DNA from: Jiangella anatolica
GTDB taxonomy: Bacteria > Actinomycetota > Actinomycetes > Jiangellales > Jiangellaceae
Direction of reading: 5' to 3'
Length of the DNA: 50,431 bases
NCBI RefSeq assembly: GCF_003236295.1
Contig: NZ_POTW01000045.1
Location: 1 to 50,431 of the forward strand
Below the pieces are notes generated by a model. That model did not search any database, was not told the DNA's origin, and saw nothing but the letters and a program-made list of their open reading frames with translations. The position numbers and the translations under genes are program-made. Each line of letters opens with the position of its first letter. The first letter of the stretch is position 1. Positions 4,075-28,841 of this stretch are shown here, piece by piece.

Positions 4075-6096
<2,022 letters not shown>

Positions 6097-22684: not shown

Positions 22685-23476
22685 GTGGCGAAGCGGATGG
22701 AACCGGCGGCGGTGTGGGCGGCGTACCGGAACGGCCACGACGCGGTGCGCGGCTGGCTGGCCGACCTGGCGCCGGAGCACTGGACCGGGCCGAGCGTGCT
22801 GCCCGGCTGGACCGTCGCCGACCTGGCGGCGCACATCGCGTTGGTGGCCGACTCGGTGACGGCGACGGCGGCGGCCCCGCGCGGGGTCGCCGCGCACTCG
22901 CTGGGCGAGTACCTGACGACGTACGCCCCGGTGGCCGGCGAGCTGTCCGAGCGGACGCTGGCCATCGCCCGCGCCGCCGAGTACGACAAGGACGGCATCC
23001 TCGCCGCGATCGACGAGCGGTTCGCGGCCGCGACGCACACCGTCGAGGAGCGCGGCATGGACGACGCCGTCCTGACGACCCGGCGGATCCCGGTCCGGCA
23101 GGCCGACTACCTGCTCACCCGCGTCATCGAGATCGCCATCCACGCCGACGACCTGGCCCGCTCGGTCCCGACCGTGCCGGCGCCCGCCGTACCCCGTGAC
23201 ACCATCCGGCTGGCCGTCCGCACCCTGCTCGACGTGCTGGCCGAGCGGGCACCGGGCCGCAGCGTCGAGGTGCGGGTCGCGCCGTATGCCGCCGTCCAGT
23301 GCATCGAGGGGCCGCGGCACACCCGCGGCACGCCGCCGAACACCGTCGACCTCACCCCGCCGCTGTGGCTGCGGCTGGCCGGTGGCCGGACCACCTGGGC
23401 CGACGAGGTCGCCGCCGGCGCCGTCCTGGCCAGCGGCCAGCGCGCCGACCTGTCCGCCTACCTGCCGCTGCTCTAG
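22685..23476 (+). CDS. Maleylpyruvate isomerase (mycothiol-dependent) family protein
   Basis: 263-residue DinB-fold protein. The N-terminal MDMPI domain shows LAPEHWTGPSVLPGWTVADLAAHIALVADSV with the metal-binding His in the AAHIA position, and HADDLARSV supplies a later His-Asp pair. The C-terminal part (VDLTPPLWLRLAGGRTTWADEVAAGAVLASGQRADLSAYLPLL) is an SCP2-like module usual in this family. It suggests a mycothiol-using actinobacterium. Its reaction cannot be assigned. The stop shares the palindrome CTAG (23473-23476) with the stop of the convergent anti-sigma gene. Confidence 0.8.
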   Translation: MAKRMEPAAVWAAYRNGHDAVRGWLADLAPEHWTGPSVLPGWTVADLAAHIALVADSVTATAAAPRGVAAHSLGEYLTTYAPVAGELSERTLAIARAAEYDKDGILAAIDERFAAATHTVEERGMDDAVLTTRRIPVRQADYLLTRVIEIAIHADDLARSVPTVPAPAVPRDTIRLAVRTLLDVLAERAPGRSVEVRVAPYAAVQCIEGPRHTRGTPPNTVDLTPPLWLRLAGGRTTWADEVAAGAVLASGQRADLSAYLPLL

Positions 23477-24261
23477 GACGCCCAGCCCGCGGCGAGGTGG
23501 GCCGTGTAGGTGACGCCGCCGGGACCGACGAGGTCGATCCGCTCGATGTCGTGGATGCGCGTGTCGACGCGGCCGCCGGACTCGCCCCCGGACGGGCCGA
23601 CCTCGTTCTCGGCCAGCTGCTCGGTCGATCCGTCCTCGGTCGTGACGGTCACCTCGTAGGTCCCCGGCTCCGCGGTGGCGCCGAGGACGGTGAACACCCA
23701 CGCCGGGTCGCCCTGGTAGAGGAACACGTGCCCGACCTGCTCGCCGGCGTCGTCGACGATCGGAGCCGCGTCGAAGTAGCGGCCGTTCGCGATCTCGAGC
23801 GTCTCGCGGTAGCCGGCCGCGAGGTCGCGGTCGTCGGACGTCGCCTGCCAGACCACGCCGGCGCCGATCACGCCGGCGATCCCGGCGATCACCGCGGCGA
23901 CGGCGTAGGGCAGCACACGGCGCCAGCGCCGCGGCCGCAGCGGGGTGACGACGGCGTCCGGCTCGTCCTCGGCGGGCGGGCCGGCCGGCGGGCCGGCCGA
24001 CGGGTCGGCCGGCGGCCGCTCGTCGGCCAGTGCCGCGATCCGGGCGAGGACGGCGCCCTCGAACCCGGCCGGCGGGTCGTGCTCCGGCGCGACCAGCAGC
24101 ACCTCGTCGGCGATCCGGGTCAGCTCCTCCAGCTCGCGGCGGCAGTCAGGGCACTCGGCCAGGTGCGCGAGCACGCGCGCGCGGTCCGGGCCGCTGGCGG
24201 CGCCGGTGGCCACCTCGGCCAGGGCGTCGGCGATATCGCCGCACCTCGTCGGATCAACCAT
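23473..24261 (-). CDS. Anti-sigma factor with zinc-finger (ZAS) domain
   Basis: 262 residues. The cytoplasmic N-terminus carries the ZAS zinc motif H33-x3-C37-x2-C40 (HLAECPDC) plus C7; a Pro/Gly/Ala-rich linker follows; one transmembrane helix (VLPYAVAAVIAGIAGVIGAGVVW, about residues 117-139) leads to an extracytoplasmic beta-rich domain ending with HDIERIDLVGPGGVTYTAHLAAGWAS. It overlaps the upstream sigma factor gene by 8 bp, the normal sign of a sigma/anti-sigma pair. It likely holds the sigma factor at the membrane until a signal acts on the outer domain. Confidence 0.87.
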   Translation of the reverse strand: MVDPTRCGDIADALAEVATGAASGPDRARVLAHLAECPDCRRELEELTRIADEVLLVAPEHDPPAGFEGAVLARIAALADERPPADPSAGPPAGPPAEDEPDAVVTPLRPRRWRRVLPYAVAAVIAGIAGVIGAGVVWQATSDDRDLAAGYRETLEIANGRYFDAAPIVDDAGEQVGHVFLYQGDPAWVFTVLGATAEPGTYEVTVTTEDGSTEQLAENEVGPSGGESGGRVDTRIHDIERIDLVGPGGVTYTAHLAAGWAS

Positions 24262-24790
24262 GACTCACCTCGAGCATCGCACGCAGCCGGGACAGTCCGG
24301 TCCGGATGCGCGTCTTGGCCGTACCGAGGGGGATCTGCTGCTGCTCACTGATCTCCCGTGCGGTGTAGCCGAAATGTACTGACAGCAGGACGGCCATCGC
24401 CTGCTCGCGGGGCAGTGCCCGTAGTGCGGTGGTGATGCGTTCGCTGTCGGCGACCCGGTCGGTGTCGTTCGTGGTGGAGATCAGCATCTCCGCGACGACG
24501 GCCGGCTCGACGGCGAGCTCCCGGCGCACCCGCAGCACGTCGATGGCGACGTTGCGGGTGATGGTCAGCAGCCACGTCGACGCCTGCGCCCGGCGGGCGT
24601 CGTAGTTGCCGGCGTGCCGCCATGCCCGGACGAACGCCTCCTGTGCCACCTCCTCCGCGATTGCGGGCACCCCGACGACCGACAACGCCAAGCCGTAGAC
24701 GCGCCCCTGATGACGCCGGACGAACGCGGCCATCGCGTCCGCGTCACCGGCGGCCATACCGGCGAGCAGGGCCTCGTCCGACACCCTCAC
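24254..24790 (-). CDS. ECF-family RNA polymerase sigma factor
   Basis: 178 residues: region 2 (MAAFVRRHQGRVYGLALSVVGVPAIAEEVAQEAFVRAWRHAGNYD...STWLLTITRNVAIDVLR) and region 4 (ALRALPREQAMAVLLSVHFGYTAREISEQQQIPLGTAKTRIRTGLSRLRAML) are complete. Resembles the SigK/SigL-type group that pairs with ZAS anti-sigma proteins. Start GTG 24790 is used; GTG 24784 is an alternative. A candidate autoregulated promoter lies just upstream. Targets are not known. Confidence 0.92.
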   Translation of the reverse strand: MRVSDEALLAGMAAGDADAMAAFVRRHQGRVYGLALSVVGVPAIAEEVAQEAFVRAWRHAGNYDARRAQASTWLLTITRNVAIDVLRVRRELAVEPAVVAEMLISTTNDTDRVADSERITTALRALPREQAMAVLLSVHFGYTAREISEQQQIPLGTAKTRIRTGLSRLRAMLEVSHG

Positions 24791-26903: not shown

Positions 26904-27524
26904 CTACCGCTTCCACTTCGGCGGCCGGGTGAACTGATGACCGCTCGCGGGATCGGCGACCACGTCGGGAAGCTGCGCCGCCCTGATTTTGGCCATGTTG
27001 ATCTGGAACGAGCTGGGCATGAGCCGTTTCAGCTCGGTGGAGTAGCGGCGCGGCGGGAACGCGGCGGCGAAGAAATTCGTCGCGGCCAGGCCGCGCGCGA
27101 CGTTGATGCCCGGCACGAGGTCGCTGTCCGCGCTGACGATGAGGGCAGAGGTAATCAGCCCGCGTGCGGTGTCGGCGACAAGTGTCGCTGCGATGTTGAC
27201 GTCGGTCTCCTTCTCCTCGTACTTGATCCGCTTCGCGCCACAGCCCTTGCAGGTGATCGTCTTGCGCTGGTGGCGCCCCTGGATGATCGAGATCACTCTG
27301 GGGTTCTGCGCCAGGAGTGCGGACTGGTACTCGCTTTGGCGGGACGCTGCGGCAGGCTCGTCGAGGACCGGGGCGGTGAAGTACTTGACCGCCTCCAGGT
27401 GACTTCGCGGCCGCAACGAGCGCGCCAGCGCCACGAGGTCGAGCCACAGCAGCCGGCAGCCTGCGGCGTCGTGCAGGCCGTGGTACATGTTGAATCCGTC
27501 GACGTAGACGATCAGCCTGTCCAT
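26904..27524 (-). CDS. NYN domain (PIN-like nuclease fold) protein
   Basis: 206 residues from ATG 27524 (a longer frame starts at 27602 but the domain begins at MDRLIVYVDGFNMYHGL). Acidic residues expected of a NYN/LabA-like metal site are visible: YVDGFN near the N-terminus, EKETDVNIA in the middle and VSADSDLVPG later. A CxxC pair (CKGCG) just before EKETD is shared by many relatives. The C-terminus (AKIRAAQLPDVVA) is also typical. Predicted cytoplasmic RNase; target unknown. It is divergent from an XRE regulator, with a candidate small RNA between them. Confidence 0.82.
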   Translation of the reverse strand: MDRLIVYVDGFNMYHGLHDAAGCRLLWLDLVALARSLRPRSHLEAVKYFTAPVLDEPAAASRQSEYQSALLAQNPRVISIIQGRHQRKTITCKGCGAKRIKYEEKETDVNIAATLVADTARGLITSALIVSADSDLVPGINVARGLAATNFFAAAFPPRRYSTELKRLMPSSFQINMAKIRAAQLPDVVADPASGHQFTRPPKWKR

Positions 27525-27595: not shown

Positions 27596-27625
27596 TGGAC
27601 ATCCGACGCCTGGTCGTTCTAAACT
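27596..27625 (+). promoter_or_regulatory. Promoter of the candidate small RNA
   Basis: TGGACA (27596-27601), 18 nt, TAAACT (27620-27625): five of six and four of six matches to the housekeeping consensus. Transcription would begin near 27632, with an intrinsic terminator about 55 nt further on. Confidence 0.55.
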
Positions 27626-27631
27626 CGACTC

Positions 27632-27692
27632 ACCACGCCGCAGCCGAAAGGCTGCTGGCTCAACGGCCTCTCTTCGAGAGGCCGTTTTTGTT
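27632..27692 (+). ncRNA. Candidate small RNA (or attenuated leader) of about 60 nt
   Basis: Two hairpins follow the promoter: GCAGCC-GAAA-GGCTGC with a GNRA-type tetraloop (about 27640-27656), then ACGGCCTCTC-TTC-GAGAGGCCGT (27663-27685) running into TTTTTGTTT, a textbook intrinsic terminator and the only T-tailed one recognised in this window. There is no convincing reading frame inside. Either an independent sRNA or an attenuator in the leader of the XRE gene, which begins 240 nt downstream. Confidence 0.6.
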
Positions 27693-27768
27693 TGTTCGCG
27701 ACGCCACTGGGACCCCCTGGTGTGGGCTAACGGGCCCCAGCGCTGTCCGCGACACTACCAGCATGGCT

Positions 27769-27796: not shown

Positions 27797-27880
27797 CTGG
27801 CGGACCTCGGCAGTCTTGCCAGAAGCTCGGTGCAATCTTGACGTTTCGGCTACGCTGGTCCTCGTGGGGGTGGCAGGTCG

Positions 27881-27932: not shown

Positions 27933-28841
27933 GTGACTGGCAGGAGTGCTCTAGGAGAGGCGGTTGCAGCCCGTCGCAAGGATCTTGGGCTGTCGCAGGT
28001 GCAGTTGGCGGCATTGAGCGGCGTGAGCCGTGGCACTGTCAGAAACCTCGAAGCTGGGATGTTCGATCCGAATCCTGGCACCTGGCGAGCTGTGCAGGGC
28101 GTTCTCGGCTGGGCCTCGGGCGCGAAGGAACTCCTGGAGGCCGGCCAGGATCCGATTGAACTCCTGCCAAGAGACGTACTGGCGATGATCCTCAGTCAGC
28201 TCGCCGAGCTCGAGGTCGAGGAGCGTGGGAACGAGTACGAGCCGATCATGGTCCAGTTCCGGAGCCTGATGTCTCGTGCCAATCGAGACGGAAAGTTCCC
28301 GAGGACAACCGTCAACGCGATCGCCGACTTCATTTACGAGTTTCCATGGTTGGAGTACGCAGAGCTGTTTGGGAACGAACTCATCCAGCCAGAGGACGGA
28401 GAACCCGCGGCGTACGCCTCCGAGGAGGAGATCGAGGCTGCGCAAGAGCGCGTCATCGGGCGGATTCAGGCGGCAATCAGGATCCAAGACCGAAAACGAC
28501 CAGCAGAACGCGTCGAGTCCACCTCAGGCGCGCTAGGCGCCAACCGTGCTTCGACCATTGACCCGGCAATCGACGCAGCAGCAGAGCCGGAGGAAGGATG
28601 GCTGGTGGAACGGAACGCCTGGGACCAGTTGTCCGAGGGGGTTAAAGATGTGCTCACAGATGGGCAGGTCATCGACTACGGCGCCTACGAACCCGAGGGA
28701 AGCGAGAACCTCGTTGTGGTCGCGTTGCTGGTGAAGAAGAGTACGGCCCCCTTGGGGCGCGGAGACCGACAGTACCTCTCGACCTCCTGGAACGACATCG
28801 CCGGGACGCTACACGCCGACCCGATCGAACAACAGCCCTAG
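27933..28841 (+). CDS. XRE-family helix-turn-helix regulator with unknown C-terminal domain
   Basis: 302 residues. Residues about 4-58 are an HTH_3 domain: ALGEAVAARRKDLGLSQVQLAALSGVSRGTVRNLEAGMFDPNPGTWRAVQGVLGW. The rest is not recognised: a middle part rich in Glu (EEEIEAAQERVIGRIQAA) and a C-terminal segment (NLVVVALLVKKSTAPLGRGDRQYLSTSWNDIAGTLHADP). Codon use is less GC-biased than its neighbours, pointing to recent acquisition. GTG 27933 is chosen for GAGGAG 9 nt upstream and the domain start. It is likely to regulate itself and perhaps the divergent NYN gene. Confidence 0.78.
   Translation: MTGRSALGEAVAARRKDLGLSQVQLAALSGVSRGTVRNLEAGMFDPNPGTWRAVQGVLGWASGAKELLEAGQDPIELLPRDVLAMILSQLAELEVEERGNEYEPIMVQFRSLMSRANRDGKFPRTTVNAIADFIYEFPWLEYAELFGNELIQPEDGEPAAYASEEEIEAAQERVIGRIQAAIRIQDRKRPAERVESTSGALGANRASTIDPAIDAAAEPEEGWLVERNAWDQLSEGVKDVLTDGQVIDYGAYEPEGSENLVVVALLVKKSTAPLGRGDRQYLSTSWNDIAGTLHADPIEQQP

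Follow-up and report, generated by a model that had tools for sequence, protein, structure and literature searches.

A short element in the 50,431-base window (the whole stretch of DNA that was analysed) is, judged by comparison with its relatives, a conserved two-hairpin RNA. It lies beside a gene for a NYN-domain protein of the PADLOC family HEC-09. An earlier note on this DNA had suggested a small RNA that has a promoter and a terminator of its own, and the comparison supports it as a candidate with a tie to the NYN gene. I found by computation a conserved RNA structure, a link of the RNA with one clade of NYN genes, conserved acidic residues in the NYN proteins, and defence genes near the module in some relatives. 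It is proposed, with a probability of roughly 0.57, that the RNA and the HEC-09 NYN protein form a two-part module whose working would resemble that of a type III toxin-antitoxin system, with the RNA as the antidote, although both the protein and the RNA belong to other families.

The element and its conserved fold

As listed in Table 1, the parts of the element follow each other closely. The series of a promoter, a GNRA-type hairpin and a T-tailed terminator, claimed earlier, was confirmed: a 67-nt stretch folds with -36.9 kcal/mol (z -5.74, equalled by 0 of 200 shuffles), and the window copy is recovered with an E-value of 1.3e-11 by a covariance model from which it had been held out. Several details of the earlier description changed. 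The promoter (TGGACA-18-TAAACT, 27596-27625, plus strand) had been called good; it has 9 of 12 consensus matches and is the sole promoter-like site of its grade in the window, but shuffle means are 0.4, 0.4, and 0.3, and since about one such site is expected by chance, the window promoter by itself is no proof. From the promoter spacing only, the transcription start is placed at about 27631-27633, and the small RNA, if transcribed, would be about 60-65 nt in length. The terminator stem has 11 pairs, not 10. It is not the only terminator-like site, as had been thought; scans give eight in the window, a number equal to that in shuffles (2.3 + 3.2 + 2.5), but the seven others have just 5-8 pairs. 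The hairpin 1 loop is indeed of the GNRA type in the window (GAAA), but it varies among the relatives. A patch of lower GC was not borne out as a distinctive trait, since the GC content is 0.61 in the patch versus 0.58-0.59 at 28200-28499 within the XRE gene. A known Rfam family was rejected as the identity of the RNA: the Rfam 15 covariance models gave no match in the window at gathering thresholds and 0 matches at E ≤ 1 in the loci of five relatives. It is the fold and, above all, the comparisons with relatives that appear to be decisive for the element.

Table 1. Features of the element and the adjacent NYN gene in the window
Feature	Position	Strand	Evidence
Whole element: putative promoter, GAAA-capped hairpin and strong terminator	27596-27696	+	
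-35 element TGGACA of the predicted small-RNA promoter	27596..27601	+	consensus scan
-10 element TAAACT	27620..27625	+	consensus scan; promoter support in relatives
Predicted small RNA: 5′ segment, two hairpins and U-rich tail	27632..27696	+	R1 match 27625-27695
Hairpin 1, GAAA loop, one bulged T	27637..27659	+	fold; pair changes in relatives
Hairpin 2, intrinsic terminator stem of 11 pairs, then TTTGTTTGTT	27662..27686	+	scan, fold
Conserved ACG at the base of hairpin 2	27663-27665	+	alignment of relatives
U-rich terminator tail	27687..27696	+	sequence, scan
NYN-domain protein, 206 aa, PADLOC HEC-09; reads away from the small RNA	26904..27524	-	Pfam, PADLOC

The covariance model, R1, was made from an alignment of the 49 units of the clearest type, and the loci L009 and L039 were left out together with the window copy. 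R1 finds the window copy with 44.6 bits, while the second-best match in the window has 11.2 bits. The consensus order of the 49 units is ACCCC-GCC-hairpin 1-GGCCC-GACGCC-hairpin 2-GGCGUUUCUUUUU. It was revealed that compensatory two-sided changes occur at 12 of the 16 pairs, and at six of the seven consensus pairs of hairpin 1, while a C-G pair at the base of hairpin 2 is constant in all 49 relatives. Paired cells make up 95.1% of the alignment, versus 77.9% in shuffles and at most 51.8% when the alignment is slid, and 0 of 500 shuffles reach the alignment on any of five structure measures (only nested pairs were modelled). The information content per column comes to 1.56 bits at the base of hairpin 2, 1.46 bits in the 5′ ACCCC segment, and 1.22 bits in the linker, against 0.07 bits in the upstream flank. 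No guide-like hypervariable or spacer-like stretch was found in the RNA; the variation sits in the stem pairs and the loops. Since the co-directional RNAs described below align poorly (13 sequences with a mean column identity of 43% and a single invariant column), the covariation is established for the mainly divergent type only.

Linkage to one clade of NYN genes

The start of the NYN gene at 27524 was preferred over 27602 on the basis of relatives. The protein matches Pfam NYN with an E-value of 1.2e-5 (26.3 bits, cut-off 24.2) and PADLOC HEC-09 (PDLC04163) with 4.3e-60 over the full profile (1-203 of 203), which was also matched by nine of the nine other members tested. No other Pfam family was matched at E ≤ 0.001 and no other PADLOC family at E ≤ 0.1. 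D9, N12, D108, D133, and D135 are invariant in 17 of 17 aligned NYN proteins. I take D9, D108, D133, and D135 to be the catalytic residues, in the pattern of an active NYN nuclease, and the window protein is a predicted RNase. Its AlphaFold model has a pLDDT of 94.2, and the closest solved fold among the matches listed is that of VPA0982 (Z 17.0, rmsd 2.7, 157 residues aligned), with the MARF1 NYN folds at Z 15.1 (rmsd 2.6, 147 aligned) and 14.6 (2.7, 148). VPA0982, the MARF1 NYN domains and LabA-like proteins have a similar fold at 10-13% identity. Residues 92 and 95 are the cysteines of a CxxC pair present in most members of the alignment of 17, a possible metal site; L055 and L057 have a longer cysteine-bearing insert, and L056 and L059 lack the pair.

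Is the RNA found beside other genes of this kind? A DNA search of 99 genomes, including the window's own, gave matches at E ≤ 1 in 81 genomes, among which the window's own and G007 were clear. The one clear relative elsewhere (L009; 79% identity, E 8.8e-18) adjoins a NYN gene and is divergent from it, as in the window. In the remaining 79 genomes the best E-values are at least 0.0077, and two of these matches, L012 in G015 and L013 in G019, also adjoin NYN genes. Among 393 genomes of the class, 19 (23 loci) were found by protein search to have NYN relatives at E ≤ 1e-15, and reading of their flanks suggested a two-hairpin RNA with a terminator, mostly divergent, by nearly all of them. A scan of reference genomes with the alignment of the 17 NYN proteins confirmed 540 places, the best 80 of which belong, by record titles, to Actinomycetota, Chloroflexota, Planctomycetota, Pseudomonadota, Bacteroidota, Acidobacteriota, and others. 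The 23 class-search loci, the best 80 of the 540, and four plasmid loci make up a set of 107 NYN loci, or 87 clusters at 80% identity. Relatives at E ≤ 1e-5 are also present in 413 of 72,556 plasmid records and 3 of 50,697 phage records, and 65 were confirmed in viral contigs.

At E ≤ 1e-3, R1 has a match in 78 of the 107 NYN loci, which are the 49 training loci and 29 of the 58 held out. Counted by protein clusters at 80% identity, the match is present in 63 of 87; training loci are absent from 40 clusters, and 16 of these have a match. In 76 of the 78 loci the RNA is at most 210 nt from the gene; in L103 the best RNA copy is 359 nt and the nearest copy 46 nt away, and in L080 the RNA is 2.3 kb away. 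As a control, 32 DNA-search loci away from NYN genes gave one R1 match, of 10.5 bits (E 0.65).

A model-free rule (two hairpins and a T-run, score of at least 42, within 300 nt upstream) was positive for 92 of 105 NYN genes versus 3 of 75 other ORFs in the same loci, the latter kept from 99 entered among 129 neighbours. The threshold of 42 was fixed after an earlier permissive scan of the 107 loci; that permissive rule flagged 105 of them with some spurious best matches, and its figure was not used. In the viral set, 59 of the 65 loci were entered, six with little upstream sequence or a partial match being left out, and 55 were kept. The rule was positive at 31 of these 55, independently of model building, and in 0 of 550 shuffles; 24 were under the threshold. 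Of the 49 more distant sources examined, which include 45 viral ones, R1 itself matches only two; this indicates that the viral and distant RNAs share architecture with R1 more than sequence.

Other NYN proteins in related genomes (19 loci) gave 0 of 19 both by the model-free rule and by R1. Since these loci are all negative and the tested RNA-linked members match HEC-09, the RNA is linked to one NYN clade, PADLOC HEC-09. The earlier note had made conservation beside NYN genes the test of its small RNA; such conservation is present in the HEC-09 clade, in the three sets counted above, but does not extend to NYN genes at large.

R1 misses 29 of the 107 loci. It finds the RNA at 17 of the 23 class-search loci, and a looser rule or inspection by eye found something at the other six (L055-L060): L055, L057, and L060 have a variant RNA upstream of the NYN gene, and L056, L058, and L059 have a two-hairpin element downstream of it. 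L059 (G000:C10:10320-10961) is a second, distant HEC-09 protein in the window's own genome (38% identical, HEC-09 5.1e-34); its downstream RNA, convergent with the gene, is a weak case, and a tRNA-Thr-like sequence was seen upstream by eye.

Whole genomes were also scanned with R1. In the 393 genomes of the class, where the best 13 candidates per genome were scored, there are at least 25 matches at E ≤ 1e-3. Of the at least 19 matches at E ≤ 1.3e-8, 17 lie by a NYN gene (at least 175 aa aligned), one by a NYN remnant (L156), and one by a 38-aa NYN-like fragment of 13.5 bits (L148). L148 retains a neighbour gene that also flanks the intact locus L051, as though the nuclease gene had disappeared and left the RNA behind. 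Six weak matches (L164-L169, E 3.5e-6 to 7e-4) were rejected and taken as other terminators; no NYN was found there by profile at E ≤ 1e-2, except for a 16-bit match in L167.

A second scan, of the best 135 candidates per genome, covered 38 genomes picked for loci carrying the RNA, which is therefore present in 38 of 38 by construction. It gave four strong extra places and seven weak matches (E 1.8e-4 to 5.4e-4). Among the strong ones, L186 has a full NYN gene and L185 a partial one (72 bits), while no NYN was found within the 3.8-3.9 kb fetched around the RNA in L187 and L188. Orphan RNAs are few in number. The RNA of L187 (1517-1580) is a strong match of 65.9 bits, and a gene near it presumably resembles McrC. 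L188 and L189, from one Chloroflexota genome, have the RNA in similar stretches with no NYN gene close by. They also have neighbouring reading frames in common, and they seem to be copies of a single segment, repeated or mobile, to which the RNA belongs.

Proposed mode of action

In the favoured scheme, the promoter would yield an RNA of about 60 nt with two hairpins, the second of which would be the terminator. The RNA would bind the NYN protein and so hold the predicted RNase inactive; trimming of precursors that carry RNA units in tandem may be a further task of the protein. Loss of the short RNA, as when a phage shuts off host transcription, would free the longer-lived protein. It could then cut cellular or phage RNA, and the infection would be aborted. 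Transcription of the RNA, its binding to the protein, inhibition, release, the targets, and phage defence are all presumed in this scheme. A trans-acting RNA antidote is the most likely reading, as it would account jointly for the promoters, the extra copies, and the orphan RNAs, and for a tie to the NYN gene that leaves side and strand free. A bolder idea, possible though doubtful, is that HEC-09 is an undescribed RNA-protein immune particle; the RNA would be both sensor and safety catch, its loss or alteration by a phage would activate the NYN protein, and the particle would be nested in Hma-like systems as a failure alarm.

Ten loci (L071, L074, L084, L085, L090, L094, L098, L099, L100, and L103) have two to four RNA units. 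In L071, L085, and L090 the units follow each other at intervals of about 60 nt, too short for a promoter in between, and in L103 at intervals of about 105 nt, with a promoter each. The L103 array (4655-5037) consists of four near-identical copies in tandem downstream of the NYN gene, each with a TTGACA promoter. Since the hairpin-1 stems vary from copy to copy in L071, L085, and L090, the copy number is not a matter of pure dosage. These varying stems would also suit the main rival reading, an unlikely one, in which the NYN nuclease depends on the RNA as a partner that would activate it, scaffold it, or direct it to a target, the complex being the active form. The tight linkage and the deep conservation of both RNA and NYN protein are consistent with such a partner, and the conserved ACCCC and ACG segments resemble contact sites. 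However, the RNA holds no guide-like hypervariable stretch, and the four L103 copies hardly differ. Moreover, RNAs are retained beside NYN remnants, and for this reason an antidote fits better than an activator.

The arrangement of the RNA and the gene is variable. Of the 78 R1 loci, 70 have the RNA upstream of the gene but on the other strand, 5 have it upstream on the gene's own strand, and 3 have it downstream on the opposite strand. Reading of the flanks placed it downstream and convergent in L045. Among the 31 rule-positive viral loci, 28 have the RNA upstream and co-directional with the gene; there the stem ends 9-38 nt before the NYN match in 25 and 50-88 nt before it in 3. Plasmids of Pseudomonas, Xanthomonas, and Methylobacterium have, by eye, the co-directional order promoter-RNA-terminator-NYN, although R1 finds none of these. 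As the orientation may be divergent, co-directional, or convergent, the RNA is no simple attenuator. The attenuator that the earlier note offered is also at odds with the window itself, where the RNA points away from the NYN gene.

The same arrangement bears on a further reading, which seems rather improbable: the RNA would be a regulatory target or decoy, which the NYN protein cuts or binds to sense how much of itself is present or how the cell is faring, with no toxin involved. The NYN proteins are predicted RNases, and the RNA, being upstream on the opposite strand in most R1 loci, might be controlled from one region together with the NYN gene. On the other hand, the variable placement and the 2.3-kb distance in L080 make it unlikely that control in cis is general, and no antisense match to the NYN start was found. 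Antisense (type I) pairing with the NYN mRNA was likewise rejected (mean z -0.17, with 1 of 43 loci below -1.64).

It is very improbable that the element is a plain terminator or insulator by the NYN gene with no role of its own. Hairpin 2 is a good intrinsic terminator, and the window promoter is no better than a site met by chance about once per 50 kb. Nevertheless, conservation extends to hairpin 1, the 5′ segment, and the linker, extra RNA copies occur, and the structure is rare by other ORFs and absent by other NYN genes, as counted above. In the relatives, 34 of 61 units have a promoter of at least 9/12 ahead of hairpin 1, while shuffles predict 3.8 (the upstream stretch was 72 nt for minus-strand references and 60 nt for the rest). 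That the RNA controls the XRE gene instead of the NYN gene is scarcely credible. The window has the XRE gene downstream of the RNA and in the same orientation, and HTH-type genes are annotated in five of the eight regions viewed, but the terminator of the RNA comes about 240 nt ahead of the likely XRE start (GTG 27933). The XRE gene was rejected as a partner, since none of the 106 NYN loci besides that of the window holds a relative of it at E ≤ 1e-3.

Known systems and neighbouring genes

As a pair of an RNase gene and a structured RNA, the module resembles the type III toxin-antitoxin systems ToxIN, CptIN, and TenpIN, and several RNA units in some loci add to the likeness. In the text available of PMC8860590, the RNA repeats of ToxIN precede the toxin gene with a terminator between them, and the three families are defined by protein sequence. 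Some relatives found here also have promoter, RNA, terminator, and nuclease in one direction. The window itself has one divergent unit in place of tandem repeats before the toxin, and it lacks the one-direction order with a terminator between RNA and toxin, an order present in 5 of the 78 R1 loci and 28 of the 31 rule-positive viral loci. The NYN/PIN-like protein is not ToxN by profile, a distinction drawn by profile and not by fold, and the RNA unit differs in having two nested hairpins that end in a terminator of their own. Another related case is AbiF of a Clostridioides difficile prophage, whose non-coding RNA RCd22 is an antitoxin acting via RNA-protein binding, as far as the available text of PMC12373285 goes; there, too, a phage-borne and widespread protein is described with a cognate non-coding RNA. 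AbiF is an Abi_2 protein, whereas the window protein is NYN only by Pfam at E ≤ 0.001. Because its protein belongs to neither family, the HEC-09 module is left outside the type III and AbiF classes. Among the other NYN proteins, whose 19 loci lack the RNA, the sole one run on PADLOC (L262) matches the LabA-like model and not HEC-09.

HEC stands for Hma-embedded candidate in the portions available of PMC12988326 and PMC10855318, and in the former the single-gene candidates were found by embedding, with the Hma-embedded candidates named alongside these. HEC-09 correlates with phage susceptibility in the available part of PMC12447246. The name fits the present results, for the module lies between HmaA and HmaB in L085, L101, and L104, while the PADLOC entry is a protein profile and the unit found here is a gene with an RNA. 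No description of an RNA beside NYN or HEC-09 was found in the open PMC literature; an earlier account may exist in preprints or subscription papers. If the favoured reading is true, the few RNases that come with a folded RNA would gain a member with an unrelated nuclease fold. If the RNA is an antidote or a needed partner, gene clones that lack it could be toxic or inactive, and phage tests could be misleading. The RNA also offers a handle for direct tests of the mode of action of a large orphan family.

The neighbours of the module were compared with PADLOC at E ≤ 1e-5 for 29 of 129 proteins, chosen by hand from 24 loci, the first of which were picked for long adjacent ORFs. Defence-system matches were obtained for 14 of the 29 proteins, in 11 of the 24 chosen loci. 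Besides the three loci with Hma genes on either side, HmaB alone is present in L071, L099, and L110, and HmaA alone in L142. The further matches are a type IIG enzyme in L127, methyltransferases in L088 and L114, and a DRT in L138. The other 13 chosen loci, including all ten of one batch, gave no defence match among the neighbours scanned. In the window, the neighbours identified by Pfam are a sodium:solute symporter, a beta-lactamase-family protein, and a sugar kinase; no defence genes were found by Pfam, and PADLOC was run on the NYN and XRE proteins only. The XRE-type gene (27933-28841, plus strand) is likelier to start at the GTG at 27933 than at the mechanically listed TTG at 27816, and its protein has no Pfam match outside HTH at E ≤ 0.001.

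Two minor observations may be added. The 3,461-bp E. coli plasmid NZ_CP091696.1 (L141) encodes a HEC-09 protein (6.1e-47), and the permissive rule places hairpin pairs on both sides of its gene, with no R1 match. At 23473-24790 of the window (minus strand), a Sigma-70 family factor adjoins a zinc-finger (zf-HC2) protein, which is the usual arrangement of a sigma factor and its anti-sigma factor.
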